Shown here: positions 19,441 to 59,100 of the stretch, piece after piece
Numbering within the stretch: position 1 is the first letter of the stretch
Layout: each line of letters starts with the position of its first letter
Assembly (NCBI GenBank): GCA_037179385.1
Contig: CM074179.1
Span: 71,261,683 to 71,325,682 of the forward strand
Direction: 5' to 3'
Length of the DNA: 64,000 nt
Source of the DNA: Holothuria scabra
Taxonomy: Eukaryota > Echinodermata > Holothuroidea > Aspidochirotida > Holothuriidae
The notes under the pieces: model-generated
The model's database searches: none
What the model saw: only the letters and a program-made list of their open reading frames with translations
Told to the model about the DNA's origin: nothing
Translations under genes and position numbers: made by a program

Positions 19441-19530
19441 GTAGTGGCCATTGTTGCAATTCAATATTAAATAAAGGAATCTAGCTGTTACTAGCATAAG
19501 TAAATGTAACCAAATGATACTGCTCATCAA

Positions 19531-20150
19531 GACAGCAACTCTGGCCCATGCTCAAAGAAGCTGAAATGAAAAGTATTTACCTAATTCTATCCTACTTTAA
19601 GTTTAAACTGAGTTTATGAAGAGATTTAACTTAGCATATAACGCCCTGTAAAATTTGTAAATAACAACAAAACAGCAACTCTAGCCCATGCTCAAAGAAG
19701 CTGATATGAAGTATTTACTCAATTCTATCCTAATTTAAACTAAGTTTAAGGAGAAATGCAACTTGGCCTATGATGCTATGTAAAATTTGTAAGTAACAAC
19801 AAAACACCAACTCTGGACCATGCTCGAAGAACCTGAAATGAAGTATTTACCCAATTCTATCCTAATTTACACCAAGTTTAAGGAGAAATGCAACTTGGCC
19901 TATGATGCTATGTAAAATTTGTAAGTAACAACAAAACAGCAACTCTGGCCCATGCTCGAAGAAGCTGAAATGAAGTATCTAGACTACCTAATTCTATCCT
20001 AATTCAAACTGAGTTTAAGGAGAGATGTAACTTAGCCTATAAAGCCCTGTAAAATTTGTAAATAGCTGCAAAACAGCAACTCTGGTCCATGCTCGAAGAA
20101 GCTGAAATGAAGTATATACCCAATTCTATCCTAACTTAAACCGAGTTTAT
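19531..20150. repeat. Tandem repeat, five ~135 bp copies
   Basis: The word CA(G/C)CAACTCTGG.CCATGCTC starts at about 19533, 19673, 19805, 19937 and 20074. Each copy continues with GAAATGAAGTATTTA, CAATTCTATCCTAA and TGTAAAATTTGTAA. The periods are 132-140 bases. The array ends just before the minus-strand SGNH frame. Confidence 0.75.
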
Positions 20151-20225: not shown

Positions 20226-20807
20226 CTAATCTTTCAAACTTAAGACTGCCCCCCGCAAATTCTTATAATATCTTTTCATTCCTAATTCACTAAAGTGGAT
20301 GCCATCATAACACAAAACAGGGGGACCCTCAAAAATTTTCTTAAGACCAGTTTGTTGCCACTGTTTAATTTTCTCATCGCCATCACATAACCTCTTGAAC
20401 GAGAAGTTCAATTTATGGACCCTTTCATTATAATCTGGGCACCCTAGGGGAATTCTTTGCCTATGTAACGTTTGTGCTACGAAAACTTTTTGGACAAGAT
20501 GGCGCATAACTAAGAACCTGCAAAATGAATTAATTTGAACAGCTAGGCAACTTGGATTAACGGCCTTATCACCCAAGTCATTGGAACCAATATCAATAAT
20601 GATGGCATCCGGGTGCAGTCTCCCAACCAAATGAATACCCTTCCACAGGCCTGGCAGCTTCAGACCTCCCCTGCCATAAATGTCTATTTTAAATTCATTT
20701 CGAGAAAGCCCTAAGCTTCTCTTTGTTCCTCATTTTTCAGATACAGCTGCCTCCCCAAACCTCCTAACAAAGGAATGCCCCCACACAAGGACATGAGTAG
20801 GAGCCAT
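20226..20807 (-). pseudogene. SGNH/GDSL-type hydrolase frame from a mobile element, one stop
   Basis: Read on the minus strand from the ATG at 20807, this is one continuous frame of about 193 codons, broken only by a TGA at codon 26 (20732-20730). It shows the SGNH blocks in order: HVLVWGHSFVRRF (block I, Ser within GHSF, about residue 12), IIIDIGSNDLG (Gly/Asn block, about residue 70) and DGIHFSELGMKRY near the C-terminus (the DxxH block). Stand-alone SGNH domains of this kind occur in animal transposons, including DIRS/Ngaro-like elements. No tyrosine recombinase or reverse transcriptase is visible here. It lies downstream of, and in the same direction as, the Tudor-like and transposase fragments, so it may be a second gene of that element. 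An acceptor-like TTGTCTCTCTCAG lies just upstream. The hydrolase fold is well supported; its role is not known. Confidence 0.65.
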
Positions 20808-20861
20808 GCTCGGACCAGTAGAATGTTACAGTTACCCTGAGAGAGACAACATTGGAAACGT

Positions 20862-21235
20862 TTATGTAAACCGTAGCTCATTCTTCTTGAAGTCTTGTAA
20901 AAGAGGGAGAGAAAATGCTTCATCATCTTCGTCATCATCATCGGTGTCTTCATTTACATAAACTATTTCAAGCATAGTATCAATCCCAGACATGGTCTCA
21001 CAGCTCAATACTAGGCCTTTACACCACATTTCTTTACCATCATCTAACACCCAAAGATGCCTGACTTCCTTGCCTAAAAGATAGTCTGGCTCTACTTGAA
21101 TGAGCTGTACATCACCACATTCAAGATCTTCCTTAATTTCATTAGTGCTAAATGAATATGACTGGGTGAACCCATCGTACCTGATAAAATATTTGTTACT
21201 CTTAAGTCCTGATACAGTTCCTAAAAACCAGCCTA
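20862..21235 (-). pseudogene. Tudor-like modules, C-terminal part of the minus-strand transposon protein
   Basis: On the minus strand the text runs GWFLGTVSGLKSNKYFIRYDG, then about 45 residues later LLGKEVRHLWVLDDGKEMWC, an acidic VNEDTDDDDEDDEAF stretch and SLPLLQDFKKNELRF before a stop at 20862. The two repeats share a pattern: GK.(I/V)RH, then a Trp with a Gly-(T/L)V strand, then Y..(R/V)Y.(D/N). This resembles SH3-fold Tudor or chromo-barrel modules found at the ends of some transposases. The first module is split by element D: its start (HLVGKRIRHNTEENGKV) lies at about 26000, on the other side. The frame does not rejoin cleanly, so at least one indel is present. Confidence 0.55.
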
Positions 21236-21244
21236 TCCAGGGTT

Positions 21245-25980: not shown

Positions 25981-26211
25981 TACTTTCCCATTTTCCTCTG
26001 TGTTATGCCTAATCCTTTTACCTACCAAATGTTCAATGTTCTCTGGCTGTTTGTGAGGGTAAATTTCCTTATGTGAGTCCCCTTGCTTTGTCCGTTTGGT
26101 TGCTGGCTCTTTCAGTTTATTTTTGAAAGCACACACTGCATCATCTGGAGCAAGACCAATAGTTGTTGTAACAGGGGTTGCTCCAGCTAATGCTTTTTTT
26201 TCAAGCATCAA
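25981..26211 (-). pseudogene. Linker and start of Tudor-like module, minus-strand transposon protein
   Basis: On the minus strand this frame continues the transposase fragment after a shift at an eight-A run near 26201. It reads through a polar linker (ALAGATPVTTTIGLAPDDAV, then basic KLKEPATKRTKQ) into EHLVGKRIRHNTEENGKV, the start of a Tudor-like module. That module is cut by element D and resumes at 21235. The frame change may be a decayed splice or a true indel in the A run. Confidence 0.55.
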
Positions 26212-28312
26212 TTGCTTTCAATAATGATTGAAGCAACTCTTCAGGGGTTTTCTTTTTTCCAACAGAGGAGACATTGAACATTCCACCCTTGTTCTTAGCA
26301 CCTAACACATACCTCCTAAATTTTAATTGAGTTTCTAGGTACTTAGACTTTGCTGTATTGGTTTGCAGCGAACGAAGATGTTCCTCTACGCTTGTATGTG
26401 ATTCAGCTAATCCGCCACATGCTGTTAATTCCCTCATTAAGACAGTTTTGCGAACTCTGTCTTGTTCTTCTCTCTTCTGGATTGCTTCTTTTTTGGCCAT
26501 TCCTTTTCTTTCTCTGCCTTCCTGTATGGTGGTTAACCGCTCAAAAAAGCGTTTCTTCTGAAGGGCGACAGATTTACGTGCTAACTGAAAATATTTGGTG
26601 CGTTCTTCTTCAGCCAAATACTCAGTCCATTGTGCAGTCTTATTTGACTTATACATAATCATGGCTTCAAGAGCAAGAGTAGAGGCATTTGGCTTTTCTC
26701 TCATTAATTGGTCTAGCATTCCAAAGTCTCTTTCCACTGTGGTGTTGGTAGTGGGTACACTTTTTGTTTCAATGACAAGTTCGACATTCTCATCATTATA
26801 TTTTCCACCTTCAAGATGATCAGAAAGCATGAGCTTGCTGAGCATCTCAAAAGAAGTGCATAACATTTCCAGGAGCTGCTTAACCATTTCATCATACTCT
26901 GTGTTCTTCACCAATGTGTTATACACATCATCTTTTTTCACAGGCACATCAGGGTACAACATGTCTTTACCCGTCATCAGATCTGAGGCATCCTGCCCCC
27001 ATTTTTCAAAACAGTCAAGAGCCTGGAATAACGCTTATTCATGTTGAGCACGTGGGTCTCTTTCTCCAAATCCCTCCAGAGTGGCCCAGTTACGACTTCG
27101 TCAATAATACCAAGGGCCTTCGTTCCTGCTACAAACTGTGCAATGCCAAGGTCTGCATTAACAGCACCTATTAACTTATTCTCTGACTTATGCCTATCAA
27201 AAAATATCTTTAGGGACTCATGCAGGTGAAATACACCAGCACCATTATGAAATAATATATTGAACCTGTTACCCTTAAATGGGGCCAAGGGCACTGTCAT
27301 AATATTTCTTTCTGATGAAAAAAAGCCCTAAACTGAACAGGCTTAGCGCTTTTTTCACATGCCCTATCTTGAACACTCTTACAAACTGTCCTAACTAACA
27401 TTTCGGTGCCACTTTCATCCTTGCCATCAAACCCAGTTATCAAGGATGCACTTACCTTTGAATCCTCAAAAATCATTCCTTCCCATGCCTTTAAAGTACA
27501 ACAAGTTCGGCTAATCCTACAATGAAATGGAGACCACAAAAGAATTCATTCAACCCTGCCACTTTATTCCTCTGCGTTTCCCCAAACTTATCCAATTCCT
27601 TCAGCACAACTGGTAAGAACTTGCCCCTATAGTCAGACAGCTGATTGAATTTCTTTTGGACAGTGTGGCGGTCACTCATTACATTTTTTATTCTTACAAA
27701 AAAATCTCCTAAGCCATGTTCCTTACCTAGGCCTAGTTCAACTAAGTCTTGAGCGACTTCTTCTAATACTTGGAGGGTTGTTTGTGATGTCCCATCAATA
27801 GTTTCTCTTAATCCTAATGTGTAAATTTGTCCGTCTGAAGTTCCCACATCATAAGCCCCATAGTGATGGCCCTTCTTGGAGGTCTCATCATTGCAGAGGG
27901 TAATGTTGTCATCATTCAGCACGGTCTCGTAAGGCTGAATTTTTGCCAGAGCTTTGGCTTCAAACAACATCTTGTTCGCAAATGTCTCCTTTGGTAACCT
28001 CCCTTCTTCTACTCCTGCAATATTTTTCAGTACACTACGAACTATGCCCTCACAATTATTCCTACCAACATTTACACTCATTAAGTATTGGTATACCATT
28101 CTAACCCCATCTACATATTTACCTTTTTTCATAGTAGTAAGTTTTCCGCATTCTCTGTCTACAAGACTTTCAATTTTACGCTCCATTTCTGTCATTGTTG
28201 CATCCATTTCTTTAAGTTTTTCTGTGCTTAGTTTTTCTTTGGCATCAATCTCTTCATACTTCTGCTTGTAGTATTTTTCTCGTCGATGGCCTAACGTCGA
28301 TGTCATTGACAT
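26201..28312 (-). pseudogene. Large DDE-like transposase, decayed (at least three frameshifts)
   Basis: The minus-strand protein starts at the ATG at 28312 with a charged coiled-coil-like stretch (about residues 10-55). It then shows candidate RNase-H-fold landmarks: LCNDETSKKGHHYGAYD (first Asp), MSDRHTVQKKFNQL (second Asp), FFCGLHFIVGLA, PLAPFKGNRFNILFHNGAG, and finally TTVERDFGMLDQLMREKPNA, whose Glu resembles the catalytic Glu of helix-inserted transposases such as hAT. Frame changes occur near 27495, 27300 and 27020, each consistent with a small indel because recognisable text resumes in another frame. I remember similar uncharacterised proteins from cnidarians and fish but cannot name the superfamily. 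The gene continues past 26201 into Tudor-like modules and is split by element D. It is long dead. Confidence 0.65.
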
Positions 28313-28730
28313 TAGTGTTAACGTTTAACTACTAGTACTACTAGGCAAATCGTTGTCTTTCTGACCAGTTTCGGAATCGGGGTCCTCATCTGACTCTGAC
28401 TCGAACCTCCCCAAAATTTGCTCTAATTCTGCCCAAGTGCATTTTCCCTTTACAGCATTACTACACCCAAAGGAAATTTCGGCATTTTCTGCGATCTTAC
28501 CGGTTATTCTTCTTCAACGGTCGGGTCGATGTGGCTAATTCTTAAAGTTGGAAAAATTGCGAAAGTTTTTTTCGGTAGGTACTTCTTCGAAAGTTTCGAA
28601 AGAAAGTGACTCCTTCGTACGTAGACGCATTCCAACAAGGCCCCGTACACGGGCTATGCGTAAATGCACGTCAATACACTGAACTGAACGCAGGGCGTAT
28701 ATTGTTACGTCACTCGGCAGAAGCTTCTAA
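28313..28730. other. 5' flank of the decayed transposase; short acidic frame
   Basis: On the minus strand an open stretch ends at a TAA at 28327-28325, just before the transposase ATG. It carries KGKCTWAELEQIL and the acidic FESESDEDPDSETGQ. It could be a lost N-terminal exon, since it lacks its own convincing start. The part nearest the satellite (28510-28730) is moderately GC-rich and holds nothing I recognise. Confidence 0.35.
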
Positions 28731-44876: not shown

Positions 44877-47716
44877 CCACCCCTAACACGAAAAATAAGA
44901 TGGAAAAAATTCTTTGATTTTTTCCCCATTACAGTACATGAAATTTTTGAAGTAAAGAAAAACTCTCACCACCCAGAGTACTATTCCCCCTCCCCCTTCC
45001 TCGTATGAGCTACTTGAGGAATACAAATCTTTATTCGAGCGCCAATCGCTAATCTGACACGCCAGTATACTGGTCGGACAAATTCAACTGTCACTACTTT
45101 CCTGTAGCTTGAAAAGTAAAAAGGCAACCTACCCGTTTCATAGCATTTAAAACGAAAATTTGGAAAGTTCTGTACCTTTGTACAGGCTTCCGACAATCCT
45201 CGACAAAAATACATGGGACAAACCCCGCTCCCCGTATCAATGTTGAAGTTTCAGGACGCCTTGGGCTGCCGCAACATTGAGTGGGGGAGTGGGGGAATAG
45301 TGTTCTGTTCATTGCTTGTTTTGCTTGTTTTGTCCCATCATTTTCGTCGAGGATTGTCGGAAGCCTGTACAAATGTATATGAAGAAGTTTTCGATCTTGG
45401 GCAACGTAATGGCAGTTGTTGAATAAAAGTTGTGCAGTTTGAAAGGAGTGATTCGATGACAAATGTCACGGTGTAAGCATCATGAAGAACAATTGCTGCA
45501 TGACAAGATAATAAAAGCGGTTTTTAAATATTTCACGGGGAAGAAATGTAACTTATTACGCATTACGGACTTCTGTCCATATTCGGTCTTTCTAATTAGG
45601 ACAGGGAAGTGATCAAAATAAGGTACCCATGGGTGGTTTAACGTCGTTAATTTTGTCATTAACCTATTCAGAAGACCCGTTGCCGCAGGGTACCGAAGGG
45701 GGCAGGGGTCGCTTTCAAGCGATAAATATTTCTTGGGAAGGGGGGCGGATCAAAACAACCTTCGGGGAGGGGAGGACAGATATTCCAGATAACTTACAGG
45801 ACAAACGTGGCGTTTTAAATTTTTGAAACCGAACTGCTACAGAAAGCTCCGAAAATGGGCTTTATAACGCTTAATTTATTCATTATCCCGATGTAGAACT
45901 CGTCACTGCTTCCTGTTACTAAGAATATCTAATTAGCGCCACGGTTTACCGTTGACCTCACCACGATTAACCATTGACCTCCACACTATTTCAGTGACTG
46001 TCGAGGGTTAATCGTGCAAACAGAAGATCTCTCTATTTATAGGAAACTTTCATTGTGCAAAAATGGTTAACCGTTTCAATTTCGAGAAATCTTTACGTAA
46101 ATTGTCACGTTCACTACCCCTTATTCTTACATATAATTTCGTCTTTAACTAGATTGTAGTTTGAATCATCATTCAACGTTTATTTATGCGAAAAAGAGAG
46201 AATTTTGTGGTTAACCGTTGGGTATATCGTGAAATATGTTACCCCCAACCCCTAACACGAAAAATAAGATGGAAAAAATTCTTTGATTTTTTCCCCATTA
46301 CAGTACATGAAATTTTTGAAGTAAAGAAAAACTCTCACCACCCAGAGTACTATTCCCCTCCCCCTTCCTCGTATGAGCTACTTGAGGAATACAAATCTTT
46401 ATTCGAGCGCCCATCGCTAATCTGACACGCCAGTATACTGGTCGGACAAATTCAACTGTCACTACTTTCCTGTAGCTTGAAAAATAAAAAGGCAACCTAC
46501 CCGTTTCATAGCATTTAAAACGAAAATTTGGAAAGTCCTATACCTTTGTACAGGCTTCCGACAATCCTCGACAAAAATACATGGGACAAACCCCGCTCCC
46601 CGTATCAATGTTGAAGTTTCAGGACGCCTTGGGCTGCCGCAACATTGAGTGGGGGAGTGGGGGAATAGTGTTCCGTTCATTGCTTGTTTTCATTGTTTTG
46701 TCCCATCATTTTCGTCGAGGATTGTCGGAAGCCTGTACAAATGTATATGAAGAAGTTTTCGATCTTGGGCAACGTAATGGCAGTTGGTGAATAAAAGTTG
46801 TGCAGTTTGAAAGGAGTGATTCGATGACAAATGTCACGGTGTAAGCATCATGAAGAACGATTGCTGCATGACAAGATAATAAAAGCGGTTTTTAAATATT
46901 TCACGGGGAAGAAATGTAACTTATTACGCATTACGGACTTCTGTCCATATTCGGTCTTTCTAATTAGGACAGGGAAGTGATCAAAATAAGGTTCCCATGG
47001 GTGGTTTAACGTCGTTAATTTTGTCATTAACCTATTCAGAAGACCCGTTGCCGCAGGGTACCGAAGGGGGCAGGGGTCGCTTTCAAGCGATAAATATTTC
47101 TTGGGAAGGGGGGCGGATCAAAACAACCTTCGGGGGAGGGGGAGGACAGATATTCCAGATAACTTACAGGACAAACGTGGCGTTTTAAATTTTTGAAACC
47201 GAACTGCTACAGAAAGCTCCGAAAATGGGCTTTATAACGCTTAATTTATTCATTATCCCGATGTAGAACTCGTCACTGCTTCCTATTACTAAGAATATCT
47301 AATTAGCGCCACGGTTTACCGTTGACCTCACCACGATTAACCATTGACCTCCACACTATTTCAATGACTGTCGAGGGTTAATCGTGCAAACAGAAGATCT
47401 CTCTATTTATAGGAAACTTTCATTGTGCAAAAATGGTTAACCGTTTCAATTTCGAGAAATCTTTACGTAAATTGTCACGTTCACTACCCCTTATTCTTAC
47501 ATATAATTTCGTCTTTAACTAGATTGTAGTTTGAATCATCATTCAACATTTATTTATGCGAAAAAAGAGAGAATTTTGTGGTTAACCGTTGGGTATATCG
47601 TGAAATATGTTACCCCCAACCCCTAACACGAAAAATAAGATGGAAAAAATTCTTTGATTTTTTCCCCATTACAGTACATGAAATTTTTGAAGTAAAGAAA
47701 AACTCTCACCACCCAG

Positions 47717-48450
47717 TAGTCTATGGGCCAATAATCGAAATCATCCCCCCCCCCCTTAGCCACAATTTTTCACTGTGTTTTTCTGTTAGGTGGGATCCTT
47801 AGGCATCATATTCTGCTTGTTTGGCATTACACAAGTGGTGGTTGTGGCCAGGAAATCCAAAATGGCCGCCAAAATGGCCGCCATTTTGGATTTTCAGGTT
47901 TAAGGAAATGTTTCTCTGTCAGAAGGTCACATACCCCCAAACAAGGTGTCATATGAAAGCTGATAAAATTTACTCTCTAGTGATGTATAATTTTAGGGGG
48001 TTCGATGTAATATGAATGCCTAAAAATAGCAAAAAGTGTGATTTTTTTGCAATTTTTTACGGAAAATTGAAATTTTAATAAAATGTTCACTTCACTATCT
48101 CATGATAGCTTTCATAGATGCATTTGATTTTTTCCACAAATTAGCTGTTATGTAATATGTTTAACACCTGCAAAACGCAGGTGGATGGCATTTCTAATTC
48201 ATGAGTTATGACCGTCCAAACATTCCAACCCTCGATTTCAGAATTTACCCAAAATGTGTTCTTCCATTGACTTACTGTACAAATTGGCTATTAACCGTGT
48301 ATTCTATGACCCTTTGTAAATGTCTGGCCCCAGCTGTCCCTCAGAAACTCTTATCCACTGTGGTTCCCTTTCAATCTATCGTAACCTGAAAATCTGTCTT
48401 TAAAAAAGTGGTGAGCATGGCCATGAAGTCCAAAATGGCCGCCATTTTGG
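47717..48450 (+). repeat. Left terminal inverted repeat of the Academ-like element
   Basis: 734 bp paired with 56637-57354. It begins TAGTCTATGGGCCAATAAT, has a C-run at about 47746, then repeated AATGGCCGCCATTTTGG palindromes (about 47863-47894 and 48433-48450). The left copy has an extra ~16 bp duplication of the palindrome half. After 48450 the two ends diverge. Confidence 0.9.
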
Positions 48451-50082
48451 TCTTTCACAATTAGGGGACTATATTTTTACAGAAGGTCAAATACCCCTTG
48501 ATTGAAATATGTAACCCCCGTTCCCTAGCCACACTACTTCATTTTGTTTTTTGGTTACAGTAAATAAGGGTATCAGTCAGCTTTTTTATTAGCCTAAGGC
48601 TTCTTTTTGCCTTTGATCTGATGTGAATGTAGGCCCAGCACCATTTTCATAGAAATGAGGGCAAGAATAACACCTTACAACTGTTTTCTGAAAACTCTGA
48701 AAAATGTCATATCTTGCCACCAAAATGTTTAAAAACAGCAAAGATTTTCCGCGAGAATGAGATTGAATCATCAGACCAGCTGGGCATACAAGAACGATGA
48801 TTTATGCCAAAATCCAAGGGGAAGTCTCTTTTCTGGTTAACACCCCTGTTGGGTGAGCAATGAGAAGTTGCGATGTGCTTTGAGAGACTATCGAATTGCG
48901 TAACGACAGCCTTACAGAACGTTGCTACAAGCATCCGATTTTCACGTAAGTTATAACTGCTTCTTCTTAGTTCGCTGTTCATTTATGTTGAGTATGATAT
49001 TTTCACCACTATATGTTGTCCACAACACGTTATAGTTTACTTAATGATAGCTTCAAAACTTCGATTACCAGTCGATGGTGTAGGCTAGGCTGAAATTTAA
49101 TAGCCTAACGCACAAGTATAGGCTAAATTGCTAAGTATACTAGGGTAGGCCTTGCTGATAAAGTATTGGCATAGGCCTAGGCTTTAAGTAAGTTACCCTT
49201 GAGCTTTCTTTAAACATAAATTCGGGTAAAGGTTGAATGGTTGCCCCAAACTAATTTTTGGATATAGTTCACACGGCAATGAAGCCCAAAAGCTTGTGCC
49301 AATTTAGCTAGATCAGACTCACTTTTTTCTTGTTTTGACTTATTCTCAGAATTGGCTTTGTGGCACTCAAGTGAAAACATATATGCTTTAGTTGATAGGC
49401 AAATGATCTTTCTTACTAATCTGTAATTTTTAATTGATAATCCCTCTGAAAGAAGATTGACATAATGATGCAGACGAAGTTTAGTTTTGCGTGTGACCAG
49501 GGTGTGATATCCCATGTAGCAAGGCCTGTTACGCAAATAATATGGTACCTGAAAAGTTTCTTCAACAGCATCTTGTCACGCGGTTACACGATTTATTCGA
49601 GCATAGAAATTCATAACCTCAGCAATTATATAAGAGTGTAATAGAATGGGTCAGCATGCAGCCTGGGTGAAGCAAAAGCTGTCGTTTTGCTAGTAACGTA
49701 CCTCTTTCACAGCAGGATGATTAACTGATTTTTTAATATTGCCACTTGCGAATAATCCTTAGTGTTTTTAAGAATTCGTTACTTAAGCTGAAGAAGTATT
49801 TTTAAAAATAAATTCCAGACATCAAATTTGAAACCATTATTATTTAAGTCTTTGGTTATTCTAAGTTTGAAAAGTGATTAATGTAAAAGTACACCTCTTG
49901 ACAGACACTATTGCTGTTATAAATAAAACTAGTATCAAAGAGGTTTAAAATGCGTACATTTGCAAAATAATTGTACTACTTTGTCGATTGAAAACAGCTT
50001 TTTTCAATATTATTCTTGTAATGTATCGTTTCAGGTTACCGTAAACGATAGGCAAGACTTGGTTATTAATAGACTTGTGAAA
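48451..50082. other. 5' region of the Academ-like element; possible leader intron
   Basis: The text just after the inverted repeat (ACAGAAGGTCAAATACCCC, then CCCTAGCCACACTACTTCATT) is a diverged echo of the terminal repeat (GTCAGAAGGTCACATACCCCC and CTTAGCCACAATTTTTCACT). A donor-like AC|GTAAGT at 48945/48946 and an acceptor TTTCAG ending at 50035 could bound a leader intron. The minus-strand frames at 48707-48982 and 49210-49536 have no recognised motif. Confidence 0.4.
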
Positions 50083-51296
50083 ATGGCAAACGAAACACCC
50101 CTAAGAATGGTGGCCAAAAAAGGAAAAGAATAACCAAAAGTGATGTCAATCTAACTTGTATTATTCATTGCTGTAATGTGAAAAACTCTTCCAAAATCTC
50201 ATCACTAACAGAAACAAGTTTCGGTAAAATCAAAGAAGTTTGTAGAATTCGCGCTAGACAAGACACAGACTTCGATATGTATGGCCACATAATTGAAAAC
50301 ATGCCAGATGTTTACCTGAACCACATGCACGGATATCACAGACTGTGTTACCAGAAGTTTACTAACATCTCAAAATTGTTGAAACATGCAGCAACCATTG
50401 ACACTGATAGACTGTCCCAACATCAGTTGAAAAGAAGACGAGTGTCAGCTGATTCAAATGTACTCTTTCCGAATAATGAATGTCTAATTTGCAGCAAGCA
50501 TAGGAAAAAGAGAAAAGGGAAAGAAGAACCTCTGACCAAGTGCGTAACATCATCTGCAAGCAGTCTTATAAAAGAAACAGCTTTAATAAAATGTGATTAT
50601 GACATGCAAACAAAAGTCAATGAAACTGACCTTGTTGCAAGAGAAGCATATTATCACCGTTCATGTTACAAATTGTACACACAAGAAGATAGCCGGAATA
50701 CAAGTCAAGCTCGAGGAGATGAAGATGCTAAAGAAAGTCAGTCAGCTCACGCAGCAGCATTTGAGTACATCTCAGAGTACATAAATGAGAGCATTATAGA
50801 CAACTCAAATGTGGAACGAATTGGTATGATCAAAGAGAAATACTTACTCTTTTTGCTAAAACACCACCCACAGCATTATAACCCGAACTACAAAACGCAC
50901 AAACTGAAAGAAAAGATAATTAGAAAGTTTGGCAGTAAAATTAAGTTTTGGCGACCAAACTATTGCAGTGATTTGATTTATTCAACATTTATTCAGCAAG
51001 GACAAGCTGTTGAAATTGCGTTTCAGGCTGCTGCATCAGAAAATAGGCGTTTGAAAGAAGCTGCCATGTTTTTGAGACGAACAATTCTGGCTGCAAAGGA
51101 AGAAGCTTTAGATATACCCTGGCCGCCACCCCCAGGTGATGAGCTCAAAGAATGGGACTCTCCACCAGAGCCGCTATTACACTTTCTTTCAGCGCTTCTT
51201 GGTGGAACAGAAACGGAGGCATTATCTCCTGATAAGTCACGAAGAGTATTGTCTATCGGTCGTGATGTAATATATGCTCTGACTAACGGCAAATGA
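50083..51296 (+). pseudogene. Academ-like protein, N-terminal Cys/His-rich part (exon 1 start)
   Basis: The probable start is the ATG at 50083 (MANETP), but the frame must shift at the CCCC run at 50098-50101 to enter the long open frame, which then gives GGQKRKRITK, a likely basic nuclear-localisation stretch. Counting from the codon at 50178, Cys/His clusters follow: C22, H54/C58 in YHRLCYQKF, C102/C105 in CLICSKH, C122, C139, and H160/C163 in YYHRSCYKLY. The paired YHR.CY motifs suggest two related zinc-binding units, probably for DNA binding at the inverted repeats. A conserved-looking IPWPPPPGDELKEW stretch lies near the end. A TGA at 51294-51296 interrupts the frame; the next ATG follows directly in the same frame, so this is a point nonsense mutation (possibly C to T at a CpG), not a gene end. 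The zinc-binding role is inference. Confidence 0.75.
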
Positions 51297-52880
51297 ATGA
51301 CACCTAAGCATATACTGTTGGGTATTTCGATATGGCATCTGACTGGAAGAGCAGACGTAGTGAAAATATTGAACAGGTTTGGCCACTGTATATCCTATTC
51401 AAGGCTGCTGGAAATCCTTACTGCAATTCACGTGGCCATTAAAGACCACGACAGTCTCTTTCCACCCGGTGTCAAGTCTGAAGGTAATGAAGTGATTCAC
51501 TTTTGTTGGGATAACTTTGACCTCAATGAGGAGACTGCATCGGGAGCTGGAACAACTCACTCAACTCATGGTCTCGTGATTCAAGAAACAGTCATTGGTG
51601 AAGAGAATGGGGAAGCTGAGGATATACTCTCCATTCCCAGGACAAAGAAAAGATCTGTCACCCTTGACATAACAGTAATGGAGCCTTGTTATGTCAAAAA
51701 ACATGCTGAGCCCAATCTTTCAGGCACAGTTTCTCGGCCGTTATTCTCAGAAGACCACACATTTGATATTAAGACATCTGACATGCTGTGGCTCTTGTGC
51801 AGGGCATTGCAAAAAGGATCAATGCAAACAGTACCAGGCTGGGGAGGGTGGATATCTCTCACGGGTGATAAACATGATGAAAGAAAAACAACTGTGGAGT
51901 ACATGCCTCCAATAAATGCCCCAGTCACTGAAAATGCTACTGTTATGCATGTCTTAAAAATCTCGCAAGAGGCATCTGCTGCTGTTGGACAGGACTACAC
52001 ATTTGTAACATTCGATCTAGCTGCTGCAAAAAAGGCGTACGAAATTTTATGGACATATCCAGATCGATTTCGCAACGTTATAATTCGACTTGGTGCATTT
52101 CACATGGCATGCACATATATAGCTGCTTTAGGAAAGTATATGAAAGGGAGTGGCTTTGAGGAAGTGTTAATTGAATCTGCAGTTTGTGCCAGTGGGTCGA
52201 TCGAAAGAGTCATGAATGGAAAACACTATAACAGAGCCAGATATGTTATAAGAACATCTCTTGAAGCTCTGGAAAGATTGTTGTTGGCTTCATTCCAAAA
52301 AGAAGAAGGTCAAGTCATTAGTGAGGGCCAAATGAGATTGATGTCTACTTTGGCAAAAACACCAAGCTTGGAGAATGTGTGTGCTGTCAAGGAAGACCCC
52401 AGGTGGAGGGAATGGTTGCAAAAGTATGAGGGGTACAAGACCAAGTTACGTTCTGGAGAAAGAGGTAAAACTGCCCAGTTCTGGATAGGCTATATGGAAA
52501 AGGCATGGCTTCTGATGCGTTTCTTGAGGGCCACTTAAGTAAATGATGTCAACCTTCACATTGCTTGTCTACATGAAATGTGTCCTCTCTTCTTCAGTCA
52601 AGAGAAGCCAAATTATGCAAGGTATACATCTGTTTATTTGAACATTCTTCTCAACCTTCCACACACACATCCCGGTGCAACAGAACTTTTAAAGAAAAAT
52701 GGAATGAGTGTAAACAGGTCTTCAATCCCGAACTCTCGAAATGCTGTGGACATAACAATAGAACAGACGTACAACCGCCATGCCAGCGGACATGGTCCTG
52801 GAATCATTGGCTTCAGTCGCAATTTGGCAGCTTATCACAGATGGAGTAGCACTCGGCATACACGTGCTGGTTATCTGCAG
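51297..52880 (+). pseudogene. Academ-like protein, DDE-like transposase core (exon 1 end)
   Basis: In frame with the preceding segment. After a helical stretch (TPKHILLGISIWHLTGRADV) come candidate catalytic residues: D72/D75 in FCWDNFDLNEE (codon at 51510), D240 in FVTFDLAAAKKAY (52014), and a Glu in ITIEQTYNRHASG (52761). About 249 residues separate the second Asp from the Glu, as in transposases whose RNase-H fold holds a large helical insertion. A Glu in GSGFEEVLIES is an alternative. A TAA at 52536-52538 interrupts the frame inside FLRAT/NDVNLHIACLHEM, and conserved-looking text resumes at once in the same frame. The exon ends at LQ|GTAGGC (52880). Catalytic assignments are by eye. Confidence 0.75.
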
Positions 52881-53245
52881 GTAGGCATTACGTTTTAAAG
52901 TAAGAGTTATACAATGAACATGTATACTACACGAGGTAAAATCAAAGGACCGGCTATACTCTTTTGATTAAGTTGTAGAAATTCGCGCAAATTAAAAAAG
53001 TTCTGTTGGAAACCACCCATATTCGAAAACGCAATTGCAAACTAAATATTTGTAAACAAGACTCAACATGGTCTTCTGTAATCTTTATATAAAGTAATCC
53101 TAAATTGGATGAAAACCTTTTACTTTTATACATAAAAATCCATACGTTTCTGAAGACTGACTGCAAAACACTGCATGTCCTTATATCCTTTATATTTTAC
53201 ATATCAATTGTGTTTACTTCACTTACCTGTTTGCATTCATTCCAG
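52881..53245 (+). other. Intron 1 of the Academ-like gene (365 bp)
   Basis: GTAGGC donor after ...GGTTATCTGCAG and acceptor ...TTGCATTCATTCCAG before GCAACACTTG. It is phase 0 and joins AGYLQ to ATLES in the same reading sense. An intron here argues for a nuclear gene transcribed by Pol II. Confidence 0.8.
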
Positions 53246-54256
53246 GCAACACTTGAATCTGTTGGTGCTGTTGATGAGGAGATGAACAACCACAAAGATG
53301 TCAACCCATCACAGATTGCACAAGAAGAATGTGCAGTTATCAACATGATGAATGCCTTTGAGAACTTCACAAACCCTTTCAATATTCCTGATGTTGACAA
53401 GCTGTACTGCATTTCATCAGGGAAACCAGTTCCAGAAGATATAGCTGCTGATATACTCACTGTTGATACTCATGGCATCAATGCTTACAAGACTTTTGTA
53501 CGAGAGAGACTAATACAGAAGACGGTTGGAATTCATGCGCCAATTAAAAGACTCAAGTTGAAGACATTTGCATCAATGGCTTTGAAAGTATCCGTGAAAA
53601 GCTCTATGAAAAAAACAAAGGAACTTGTAGCAGAAAGAAACGTATTTGGCCAGTTGATACTCCTTGCAATGAATCACAACCTGTGTATGGAAAAGGTATT
53701 ATCATACCCACTTGGACCCGTACCCTGGAGCTTTGCCACTGCTGATGGAGCACCAGTTAAGACAGACAAGGCAAAACTAATGCACAAGCTGGAAGAAGGC
53801 CATACAATGACAAACAGATCACATTCTGCTATTCATGTTATTGATGGAAATGCGATGTTCCAAGCGCTCTCTCAAATCCCAGAAACATTTGGTGAGTTAG
53901 CCCAGCGTATTTTTGCACAACTTCCGAACGCTACTCGTGTGGACTTTGTAACAGACACATACCAGCAACAGAGTATCAAGAACATTGAAAGGGAGCGCCG
54001 TGGGACATCACAAGAATTCCTCATACATGGATATCTCACAAAAGTACCAAGTAACTACAAACAGTTCTTGGCAAACAGTTCTAACAAAGCACAGCTTATC
54101 CGTCTAATCTTGGATGAGTGGAAGAAGGACAAGTATGCACCGAAGCTAAAGGGACGACAAGTGATGTTCGTGTGTGAAGAGAACTGTTGGAGCCTCACAA
54201 GCAGAGATTGACACTCTACTATAGCAGAAGAGGTTCCAGTCTTGCGATCAAAACAG
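53246..54256 (+). pseudogene. Academ-like protein, exon 2: linker and first half of FEN/XPG-like nuclease
   Basis: Exon 2 runs from ATLESVGAV to LRSKQ|GTGTGT. After a linker (NAFENFTNPF, SGKPVPEDIAADIL) come nuclease landmarks: VIDGNAMFQAL (Asp at about 53842), equivalent to the first conserved Asp of FEN1, and VDFVTDTYQQQSIKNIERER (Asp at about 53953, with the downstream Lys and Arg), equivalent to the second. Then KGRQVMFVCEENCW leads to a TGA at 54209-54211, the third in-frame stop, after which the frame continues with EEVPVLRSKQ to the donor. The FEN/XPG assignment is strengthened by the motif order across exons 2 and 3. Confidence 0.75.
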
Positions 54257-54544
54257 GTGTGTACCGAATTTGAACCAATCAAATAAACCAATTCTTACCA
54301 GGTTAAATCTCACTTGACAGTATTTTTATTACAGTTCTTTATTACTGGACCTTAACTTTCATGTTAGCTTTGCTACTTTCAAAGTCAAACGCAAATGAAA
54401 CCTCTTGTTTGATGACGGCTCGCTTTGCGTTTCAGAAAGTTGAAATAATGAGTGGCCTTTTTCATATCTTTTTTATACCATGCATGTAGATGGAATTTTT
54501 TCATAATAATGAATCTTTTCAAGCATTACTTTGATCTTTTTCAG
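54257..54544 (+). other. Intron 2 of the Academ-like gene (288 bp)
   Basis: Donor AAACAG|GTGTGT and acceptor TTTTTCAG|GAAGAG, phase 0. It joins RSKQ to EEADTR, placing the intron exactly before the metal-binding Glu motif of the nuclease. Confidence 0.8.
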
Positions 54545-55375
54545 GAAGAGGCAGACACCCGAATGATTCTTCACTGTTTTCACATTGCAACTCAGTGCAG
54601 TAATGTGAGTGTTATAATTGTTCGTTCACCTGACACAGACGTGTTCCTGTTGATGATGAAGTTTTCCCAAAAACTCCCGATACCACTTATAATGGACACT
54701 GGTGTAGGAGACAAGCGACGTTTGATTGATATCACATCAGCATGTAAGAGCATTGGCAATGACATGTGTAACGCATTACTCTCCTTGCATGCCTTTACTG
54801 GCTGTGATACCGTAAGTTCGTTCATGCGCAAAGGTAAAGTTGGACCTCTGCGTGTGCTGAAAAATAATCCACAGTACATTCCTGTTTTCACTAGTTTAGG
54901 TACAACCACTTCACCAACTCCACAACAATTTGATGATCTGGAAGCGTTCACATGCCTGTTATACGGTGCGAGGTCAGGTATCAAGAACATCAACAAGCTT
55001 CGCTTCACTATGTTTATGACACGCTACACACCTCAAAACCAGCTATTATCTAGTGAGAGTGGCATCGACCTAAGCTTACTTCCACCCTGCAGATCATCGT
55101 TGCGAATGCATGTTTTACGTGCTAATTATCAGGCTTTCATCTGGAACCAAGCAAATCTGGCATTCCCGGAACTACCAAAACCATACAATGGTCATGGCTG
55201 GGTTTTAAAAGATGAAAAATTGCAGTACCAATGGACAGAAGAAGAACTCCTTCCAACTGAATTGGTGGATCTAGTACTGGAGCAGAATGATGAACGAGAG
55301 AACACTAGTGATGATGACTGCTACGACATTCATGATGACATTTTAGATGAAGAAGAGGAGAGTGATGACATCTAA
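54545..55375 (+). pseudogene. Academ-like protein, exon 3: second half of FEN/XPG-like nuclease and acidic tail
   Basis: Opens with EEADTRMIL, matching the position of the E.E motif of FEN1/XPG nucleases. It is followed by VIIVRSPDTDVFLLMM (the D.D pair, codons at about 54632-54640) and LHAFTGCDTVSSFMRKGK (the final Asp of the lGsD motif, codon at about 54806). With the two Asp residues of exon 2, this gives the full order of acidic ligands expected for a two-metal structure-specific nuclease. The tail is strongly acidic (DDDCYDIHDDILDEEEESDD). This exon has no internal stop. The FEN fold normally cuts flaps or bubbles; a role in processing transposon or target ends is inference. A poly(A) signal AATAAA lies at 55815-55820. 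Confidence 0.8.
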
Positions 55376-56060
55376 ATATGTTACACTTTAATCACATCCT
55401 ATGCTTTACTTTTGACAAGGGTGTTTTATACACACTAACAGGTATGGGTCATTGTACTTTTGGTTCTGCTAGTTACACAGATGTTACACTTCTTTTGTAA
55501 TTTTTCCTTCATGTTATTGCAATAATAACGACCCCACTTCGCGTGATCGATGATCCAAATGATTCAGATCTTGATTGGGAAATTATGGGAAGTTTGTAAT
55601 CTTTCTATTTTTATTGGATAGAAATGAATGATTTAATAGCATTTCAGTTTCTTCCTAGTTCTTGCGATGTATATCATTATATCCTATTTGAGGTTCTCGA
55701 TGGTATGCATTCCGTGCTAAAGTGGTGCAAGAGGGGGCATTTCATCCTTGCCCCATCAATTGCCCCTCCCTCACGTTAGATCAGTAAGGGGTCAGGTGAA
55801 CGGAAGAAGTAAGTAATAAATTTCTCCTGAGATTTAATTTTTTCCAGACACATGATAACCTTTTTTAAAGCTTGTCAGGGTTTCGGCCAAGTGGGCTCAC
55901 CCGCAGGAACGGGTGCTTCTGGTTATGTTTCGTGCTGTACCCCAAAACTGTTGCCTCATCATTCTTCTATGATTTTCATTTACCCCAAACCAATTTTGAA
56001 ATTCTGGCGCCACCTCTGACAATATGTGAACTAATAAAAAGTGCATAACTCCTCGTTACT
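55376..56060. other. 3' flank of the Academ-like gene
   Basis: Non-coding. Contains AATAAA at 55815 and a small hairpin, CACCCGCAGGAACGGGTG, near 55899. No other gene is seen. Confidence 0.5.
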
Positions 56061-56065
56061 GAAAA

Positions 56066-56650
56066 AGGCGAAATGGCCGCCATTTTGAACAATTTCATGG
56101 CCACACCAAGTCACCAACATTTTATTTGATGGCATACATTTTGAAACTGATAGCTGAAAACCTTGAGTACCATTAAACAGAAGTGGGTGAGAACGTCTAA
56201 GGCAAAGAGGACAGCGAAATACACAGGCTCATTATCTGCATAATTTATTTCCCATTTGTATAGTTAGCCCATAGAAGAAACATTTTTAGTAACTGCTGAA
56301 ACTGTGGGTCTAAACCTTTTAATGATCAAAACTCACGAATTATGTGTGCTATCTGTCGGAGTTTTGCCAGTATTGCATTTATTATATAGGAGCAAACCTG
56401 TGGAGAAAATGTTTTGAAGCAATGAAAACTATGATAAGATATAGAGATACCTTTATATTAAAACGTTGTAAAAAATAGCAAAAATCATATTTTTTGCTAT
56501 TTTTAGACATCTGTGTGATTGCAAATCCCCTATAACTGTAAATCACTGGAAAGACTATCTAACCAGCTTTCAAATGACACCTTGTTTAGCAGTATGTGAT
56601 ACTCCGACAGGAAGACAACGTGTTAAACATGAGAATCCAAAATGGCGGCC
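56066..56650. repeat. Diverged subterminal repeat next to the right inverted repeat
   Basis: This ~580 bp stretch follows the same order of landmarks as the right inverted repeat beside it: AAATGGCCGCCATTTTG, CATGGCCAC.CC.A...CACCA, GCCCATAGAAGAAAC against GTCAATGGAAGAACAC, ATCAAAACTCACGAATTA against GTCATAACTCATGAATTA, TGTGGAGAAAATG against TGTGGAAAAAATC, TTTGCTATTTTTAG, and CTTTCAAATGACACCTTGTT against CTTTCATATGACACCTTGTT. It is an older tandem copy of the terminal unit. Confidence 0.7.
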
Positions 56651-57354
56651 ATTTTGGACTTCATGGCCGTGCTCACCACTTTTTTAAAGACAGATTTTCA
56701 GGTTACGATAGACTGAAAGGGAAACACAGTAGATAAGAGTTTCTGAGGGACAGCTGGGGCCAGACATTTACAAAGGGTCATAGAATACACGGTTAATAGC
56801 CAATTTGTACAGTAAGTCAATGGAAGAACACATTTTGGGTAAATTCTGAAATCGAGGGTTGAAATGTTTGGACGGTCATAACTCATGAATTAGAAATGCC
56901 ATCCACCTGCGTTTTGCAGGTGTTAAACATATTACATAACAGCTAATTTGTGGAAAAAATCAAATGCATCTATGAAAGCTATCATGAGATACTGAAGTGA
57001 ACATTTTATTAAAATTTCAATTTTCCGTAAAAAATTGCAAAAAAATCACACTTTTTGCTATTTTTAGGCATTCATATTACATCGAACCCCCTAAAATTAT
57101 ACATCACTAGAGAGTAAATTTTATCAGCTTTCATATGACACCTTGTTTGGGGGTATGTGACCTTCTGACAGAGAAACAGCTCCTTAAACCTGAAAATCCA
57201 AAATGGCGGCCATTTTGGATTTCCTGGCCACACCCACCACTTGTGTAATGGCAAACAAGCAGAATATGATGCCTAAGGATCCCACCTAACAGAAAAACAT
57301 AGTGAAAAATTGTGGCTAAGGGGGGGATGATTTCGACTATTAGCCCATAGACTA
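56637..57354 (-). repeat. Right terminal inverted repeat of the Academ-like element
   Basis: 718 bp, inverted match to 47717-48450, ending GCCCATAGACTA followed by the CAG duplication. It holds AATGGCGGCCATTTTGG palindromes at about 56637-56657 and 57199-57219. Confidence 0.9.
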
Positions 57355-59100
57355 CAGAGTACTATTCCCCCTCCCCCTTCCTCGTATGAGCTACCTGAGG
57401 AATACAAATCTTTATTCGAGCGCCCATCGCTAATCTGACACGCCAGTATACTGGTCGGACAAATTCAACTGTCACTACTTTCCTGTAGCTTGAAAAATAA
57501 AAAGGCAACCTACCCGTTTCATAGCATTTAAAACGAAAATTTGGAAAGTCCTATACCTTTGTACAGGCTTCCGACAATCCTCGACAAAAATACATGGGAC
57601 AAACCCCGCTCCCCGTATCAATGTTGAAGTTTCAGGACGCCTTGGGCTGCCGCAACATTGAGTGGGGGAGTGGGGGAATGGTGTTCCGTTCATTGCTTGT
57701 TTTGTCCCATCATTTTCGTCGAGGATTGTCGGAAGCCTGTACAAATGTATATGAAGAAGTTTTCGGTCTTGGGCAACGTAATGGCAGTTGGTGAATAAAA
57801 GTTATGCAGTTTGAAAGGAGTGATTCGATGACAAATGTCACGGTGTAAGCATCATGAAGAACAATTGCTGCATGACAAGATAATAAAAGCGGTTTTTAAA
57901 TATTTCACGGGGAAGAAATGTAACTTATTACGCATTACGGACTTCTGTCCATATTCGGTCTTTCTAATTAGGACAGGGAAGTGATCAAAATAAGGTACCC
58001 ATGGGTGGTTTAACGTCGTTAATTTTGTCATTAACCTATTCAGAAGACCCGTTGCCGCAGGGTACCGAAGGGGGCAGAGGTCGCTTTCAAGCGATAAATA
58101 TTTCTTGGGAAGGGGGGCGGATCAAAACAACCTTCGGGGGAGGGGGAGGACAGATATTCCAGATAACTTACAGGACAAACGTGGCGTTTTAAATTTTTGA
58201 AACCGAACTGCTACAGAAAGCTCCGAAAATGGGCTTTATAACGCTTAATTTATTCATTATCCCGATGTAGAACTCGTCACTGCTTCCTATTACTAAGAAT
58301 ATCTAATTAGCGCCACGGTTTACCGTTGACCTCACCACGATTAACCATTGACCTCCACACTATTTCAGTGACTGTCGAGGGTTAATCGTGCAAACAGAAG
58401 ATCTCTCTATTTATAGGAAACTTTCATTGTGCAAAAATGGTTAACCGTTTCAATTTCGAGAAATCTTTACGTAAATTGTCACGTTCACTACCCCTTATTC
58501 TTACATATAATTTCGTCTTTAACTAGATTGTAGTTTGAATCATCATTCAACATTTATTTATGCGAAAAAAGAGAGAATTTTGTGGTTAACCGTTGGGTAT
58601 ATCGTGAAATATGTTACCCCCAACCCCTAACACGAAAAATAAGATGGAAAAAATTCTTTGATTTTTTCCCCATTACAGTACATGAAATTTTTGAAGTAAA
58701 GAAAAACTCTCACCACCCAGAGTACTATTCCCCCTCCCCCTTCCTCGTATGAGCTACTTGAGGAATACAAATCTTTATTCGAGCGCCCATCGCTAATCTG
58801 ACACGCCAGTATACTGGTCGGACAAATTCAACTGTCACTACTTTCCTGTAGCTTGAAAAATAAAAAGGCAACCTACCCGTTTCATAGCATTTAAAACGAA
58901 AATTTGGAAAGTCCTGTACCTTTGTACAGGCTTCCGACAATCCTCGACAAAAATACATGGGACAAACCCCGCTCCCCGTATCAATGTTGAAGTTTCAGGA
59001 CGCCTTGGGCTGCCGCAACATTGAGTGGGGGAGTGGGGGAATGGTGTTCCGTTCATTGCTTGTTTTGCTTGTTTTGTCCCATCATTTTTGTCGAGGATTG
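57355..59100. repeat. 1.37 kb satellite array, right block (1.3 units)
   Basis: Resumes in exact phase after the transposon, with markers at 57594 and 58957 (period 1363 because one 9 bp TGCTTGTTT word is missing). The array ends at 59100 inside the right hairpin arm (TTTTTGTCGAGGATTG). Its first base on the left (28731) lies in the left arm, so the array is bounded by inverted halves of the same module. Confidence 0.9.

Follow-up and report, generated by a model that had tools for sequence, protein, structure and literature searches.

A probable AcademX-type transposon in Holothuria scabra encoding a DDE transposase and a predicted FEN/EXO1/XPG-type nuclease in one protein

A 64,000-nt stretch of the Holothuria scabra genome (GCA_037179385.1, contig CM074179.1, 71,261,683-71,325,682 of the forward strand), hereafter the window, contains a 9638-bp cut-and-paste DNA transposon. 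It almost certainly belongs to AcademX, the Academ lineage with a nuclease, and is a single copy that inserted recently and has since been damaged. The element encodes one protein of about 1500 residues, and it is probably best explained as an AcademX copy whose protein joins Cys/His modules, a DDE half and a FEN-like nuclease half that would act on the other DNA strand. Directly supported are the ends of the element, its 3-bp target site duplications (TSDs), the fusion of the two halves, the conservation of both catalytic sets, the predicted folds, and the presence of near-identical sister copies with open exons. The element and its ends were placed as follows.

47717-57354, + strand: whole transposon, 9638 bp, delimited by termini, TSD, empty sites and six sister copies sharing both 12-base ends
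47717-48450, + strand: left terminal inverted repeat, about 734 bp, with two long blocks 98% complementary and the outermost 41 bp 90% complementary to the right repeat
56637-57354, - strand: right terminal inverted repeat, about 718 bp, placed by complementarity to the left repeat
47714-47716, no strand: left TSD copy, CAG, 3 bp, from comparison with other array monomers
57355-57357, no strand: right TSD copy, CAG, 3 bp, from the same comparison
56480-56709, no strand: subterminal direct repeat, 74% identical to 57041-57270 at a spacing of 561

The termini read TAGTCTATGGGC at 47717 and its reverse complement, GCCCATAGACTA, at 57354. The insertion lies in a tandem array with a period of about 1372 bp, which occupies approximately 28731-59100 of the window, and all 14 of the 14 other array monomers that match both 300-base flanks carry the empty site CCCAG/AGTAC with a single CAG. 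Thus, the insertion duplicated CAG and nothing else. Beside the subterminal repeats, an internal stretch of 22 nt (56254-56275) is 77% complementary to the left end of the element, and may be the trace of an older end duplication.

A search of the window's own genome (1.19 Gb, 31 contigs) with exon 2 of the element returned nine matches including the window, and the eight others were fetched. Both 12-base ends are present in six of these eight sister copies; in the copy on C17 (7.06 Mb) the match begins only at element base 55, and the copy on contig C3 has undergone rearrangement and contains a piece of the interior in duplicate. Full-length identity to the window element is 99.0-99.4% in five of the eight and 97% in a sixth, and such near-identity indicates that the family moved recently. 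All three exons are open in two of the eight, while the other six have at least one interruption. A second search used the left 144 bases as query (40 scored matches of 120 candidates) and yielded ten further elements paired by their ends. Five of them were read whole (L040, L055, L058, L059, L060) and were found to be 1.0-6.0 kb long, with ends and parts of the interior in common with the window element; the interior of L058-L060 also contains sequence unmatched to it. These shortened or rearranged derivatives are presumably mobilised in trans. The other five were paired by two ends only, 5.6-8.1 kb apart. TSDs were CAG, TTG, ATA, GAT, TGT, ATA and TAT for the window element and six sister copies, CTT for C3, the two ends of which are about 12 kb apart, and CTG, ATC, TCT, ATA, TTA, AAA, ATT, TGA, ATA and TTC for the ten further elements, so that TSD length was 3 bp in 18/18 paired ends, the count covering only matches with a partner.

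The protein is encoded by three exons, which the initial annotation of the window had read as three phase-0 exons in one sense.

50083-52880, + strand: exon 1, Cys/His modules and DDE half, placed by open reading frames (ORFs) and homologs
53246-54256, + strand: exon 2, linker and first part of the FEN/XPG-like domain
54545-55375, + strand: exon 3, rest of the FEN/XPG-like domain and C-terminal part

Both junctions (52880/53246 and 54256/54545) are GT-AG and of phase 0, and the homolog P0001, a single predicted protein, is continuous across them (RAGYVQ-ATMEL and STQ-EEADTR). The annotation overlooked that the window copy is damaged in its coding sequence and unable to make the protein. Exon 1 contains in-frame stops at 51294-51296 (TGA) and 52536-52538 (TAA), and exon 2 contains one at 54209-54211 (TGA). 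In addition, the ATG at 50083, the likely start codon, does not share the reading frame of exon 1. Recoding of the stop codons was rejected, as both TGA and TAA occur among them and two sister copies are open.

Homologs were searched with residues 420-1380 of the protein (E <= 0.001), which gave 151 proteins, and the best 120 were used for the counts on the DDE and nuclease halves, with homologs that have a residue at a given position as the denominator for conservation. The conserved positions were as follows.

50157-50666, + strand: two Cys/His modules (C29, H32 ... H89, C92; C137, C140 ... H195, C198), partly conserved
51510-51512, + strand: D480, first D of the DDE triad (WDNFD), 108/108
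52014-52016, + strand: D648, second D of the triad (FDLA), 117/117
52761-52763, + strand: E897, E of the triad (TIEQT), 118/120
53843-53845, + strand: D1136 (IDGNA), first acidic nuclease residue, 111/112, with E in the remaining one
53954-53956, + strand: D1173 (FVTDTY), profile-aligned to EXO1 D78, 110/110
53978-54001, + strand: K1181, E1184, R1185 and R1188, a patch aligned to EXO1 KKEVERSRR, 112/112, 112/112, 110/113 and 112/112
54545-54556, + strand: E1274, E1275 and D1277 (EEAD), 109/110, 110/110 and 109/109
54632-54640, + strand: D1303 and D1305 (PDTD), 107/108 and 108/108
54806-54808, + strand: D1361 (GCD), profile-aligned to EXO1 D225, 104/104

The D-D-E residues proposed at 51510, 52014 and 52761 are thus near-invariant, and so are the eight positions of the ordered acidic set DGNAM-FVTDTY-EEADTR-SPDTD-GCDT that had been noticed behind them. 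An acidic residue stands at all twelve tested acidic positions in 89 of the 120 homologs, the misses being mostly gaps. The proposed Cys/His clusters held in part: C92 (59/60), C137 (66/68), C140 (66/68), H195 (73/74) and C198 (73/76) are conserved, while C29, H32 and H89, present in the window and some homologs, fell below the cut of the conservation count. We infer that these modules bind zinc and that they may serve to bind the element's inverted repeats.

Where homologs span nearly the whole query region, their identity to the window protein is 29-53%, and many of these have 1540-1600 residues. By name, the homologs come from Pinctada, Nucella, Sycon, Apostichopus, Anneissia and Dendronephthya, among others. 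More than half of both halves is covered in 109 of the 120, a count to be read with the fact that the query spanned both halves and favours fused matches; of the remaining 11, ten are confined to the DDE half, and in one the nuclease half is complete and 48% of the DDE half is covered. A search with the nuclease half gave 1095 matches, and many shorter proteins with this half stand among the best 120, which, given the length filter and short contigs, cannot show separate genes. The single protein joining both halves, as initially annotated, therefore stands, the halves not being always separate genes. Some homologs, P0219, P0230, P0231 and P0232 among them, have an extra C-terminal cysteine-rich stretch, and that of P0120 matches the Tesmin/TSO1 CXC domain. 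Homologs with gastropod names (Nucella, Elysia, Gigantopelta) are P0029, P0059, P0061, P0063, P0209 and P0216, in contrast to a report of Academ as nearly confined to bivalves among molluscs (PMC10294476).

Structure searches with two AlphaFold models matched the C-terminal half to EXO1, FEN1 and XPG by predicted fold in both Foldseek and VIA-align. XPG and FEN1 took the top ranks in Foldseek, VIA-align scored EXO1 highest with each of the two models, above FEN1 by 1.5 and 1.8 Z, and the structural alignments to EXO1, FEN1 and XPG had 10-14% sequence identity. In a profile search of the PDB, the C-terminal half weakly matched EXO1 (E 0.0099), and all five matched sequences were EXO1; the whole-protein profile gave EXO1 as its best match at E 0.37, followed by the unrelated SDS3 at 0.89, and a single homolog alone gave no PDB match at E 1. 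The FEN/XPG-like nuclease part of the initial annotation was thus recovered by fold, and weakly by profile, and the models support a FEN/EXO1/XPG-type nuclease domain in the C-terminal half.

The predicted fold of the DDE half may be P-element-like, with a match to the Drosophila P-element transposase over 323 residues. With the whole model, the P element was the only transposase among the best 50 structure matches, where the absence of others is uninformative. In Pfam scans of the window exons, divided into five pieces, one piece matched DUF6589 below the cut-off (16.6 bits, cut-off 27), and all other matches were weak and unrelated. Among seven scanned homologs, several of them chosen for a prior PF20231 label, DUF6589 was above cut-off in four, below in one and absent in two. 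DUF6589, a family of unknown function, matches a part of the DDE half and is the only Pfam match there, and none of the papers covered by a literature search mentions the name. Neither the window exon pieces nor the seven homologs had a Pfam match to THAP.

In AcademX elements, transposase and nuclease form one protein and the nuclease is of the XPG type. A transposase and a nuclease in one element are already known as AcademX and this combination is not new; the AcademX elements known so far have been recognised from sequence. AcademX is a lineage of the Academ superfamily (Kojima 2020, as cited in PMC10045372), which is placed among the DDD/E superfamilies (PMC9587614). A TSD of 3 or 4 bp is reported for AcademX and one of 9 or 10 bp for AcademH, linked to nuclease and helicase, respectively (PMC10045372). 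The present element has a 3-bp TSD, a nuclease encoded with the transposase, and a DDD/E transposase by triad and fold, in agreement with the likeness suggested earlier to an Academ lineage that has a nuclease and makes duplications of 3-4 bp. It is probably a new AcademX family, assigned from TSD length, nuclease and DDE features. Its 9.6 kb compare with a mean of 5565 bp for bivalve Academ consensuses (PMC10294476). AcademH shares the superfamily by name, but is reported to differ in TSD length and to have a helicase in place of the nuclease; at E 1, Pfam found no helicase in any of the five pieces of the window exons. To human EXO1, FEN1 and XPG, the nuclease half is alike in its modelled FEN/PIN-type fold, in the order of conserved acidic residues, two of them profile-aligned to EXO1, in the basic patch after the second Asp, and in the GCD followed by helices, whereas here the nuclease is fused behind a DDE half within a transposon. 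The P element is not known to have a FEN half and has an 8-bp TSD; membership of the P superfamily was rejected on the 3-bp TSD. KolobokE, KolobokD and KolobokP are also DDE lineages with an accessory nuclease, but the nuclease folds differ (lambda-exonuclease-like, DnaQ-type, His-Me; PMC9587614).

A working mechanism can be proposed from the two predicted domains. By the established chemistry of DDE transposases, the DDE half would cleave at the element's 3' ends and transfer these ends to target strands at positions 3 bp apart. The element's 5' strand would then stay connected to donor DNA or form a 5' flap. FEN-type nucleases act on substrates of this class, and the FEN-like half would cut the other strand, either the 5' strand or a donor-DNA 5' flap at the element's 5' end. 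In Tn7, TnsA acts beside TnsB as a second nuclease cutting the non-transferred strand, and the fused nuclease would take this role within one protein, an analogy of function only, as TnsA and TnsB are separate, bacterial proteins and the nuclease is of restriction type. We give this nuclease step slightly less than even credence. More tentative is a fuller version, in which DDE half and FEN/EXO1-type half work in one complex, the former opening and joining 3' strands and the latter cutting 5' strands or donor flaps and also setting the 3-bp stagger, as a eukaryotic counterpart of TnsB and TnsA derived from a DNA-repair nuclease. A literature search that did not extend to most subscription papers found no experiment on the reason for a repair-type nuclease in AcademX elements. 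In the present family the copies are near-identical and two have open exons, the ends are exactly placed, empty sites are available, and both halves are well predicted, each with an active site of its own, so that the role of the nuclease is directly testable.

Against the proposed mechanism weigh the points named below in favour of each alternative, besides the facts that nuclease processing of ends or flaps is something we infer and that the window copy cannot make the protein. The main alternative, somewhat less probable, is that the nuclease half acts like EXO1 after excision, resecting the donor break 5' to 3' so that repair is copied from the sister chromatid, the element restored and copy number raised; the nuclease would then be dispensable for the cut-and-join chemistry. 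The EXO1 lead in VIA-align and the five EXO1 sequences of the profile search point this way, and the five shortened derivatives with similar ends are possible products of abortive gap repair. However, the lead is modest and XPG and FEN1 are top in Foldseek; internal deletions are known without a nuclease too, as in P and hAT elements; and the unmatched interior sequence of L058-L060 means that three of the five derivatives are not simple deletions. In addition, TSD length in AcademX and AcademH is said to vary together with the accessory enzyme (PMC10045372), a hint that this enzyme takes part in transposition itself. As between two-strand cutting and EXO1-like resection, the evidence is not decisive. 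Far less probable is a catalytically silent FEN-like half that only recognises branched DNA or junctions: fold matches of models do not establish function, but the eight acidic positions and K1181, E1184 and R1188 are near-invariant in homologs down to 29% identity. The reading that the halves are separate genes, or adjacent window ORFs joined by chance read-through, was rejected as very improbable. Three stops and two introns do break the frame of the window copy, and 11 homologs do not cover both halves, but homologs of about 1500 residues are continuous over both junctions, 109 have both halves, and no exon is interrupted in two of the sister copies.

Elsewhere in the window, eight reverse-strand ORFs of 123-142 codons (minimum 120 codons) recur in the host array, and the one that was tested had no Pfam match. 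Two adjacent 277-codon ORFs at 26201-28324 (- strand) resemble pieces of another mobile-element protein, with no Pfam match at E 0.01. ORFs at 20226-21242 (- strand) had GDSL-lipase and Spin/Ssty matches, all under the curated cut-offs, and are possibly retroelement-derived. A short tandem array with a 132-bp unit in 4.6 copies lies at 19528-20149.
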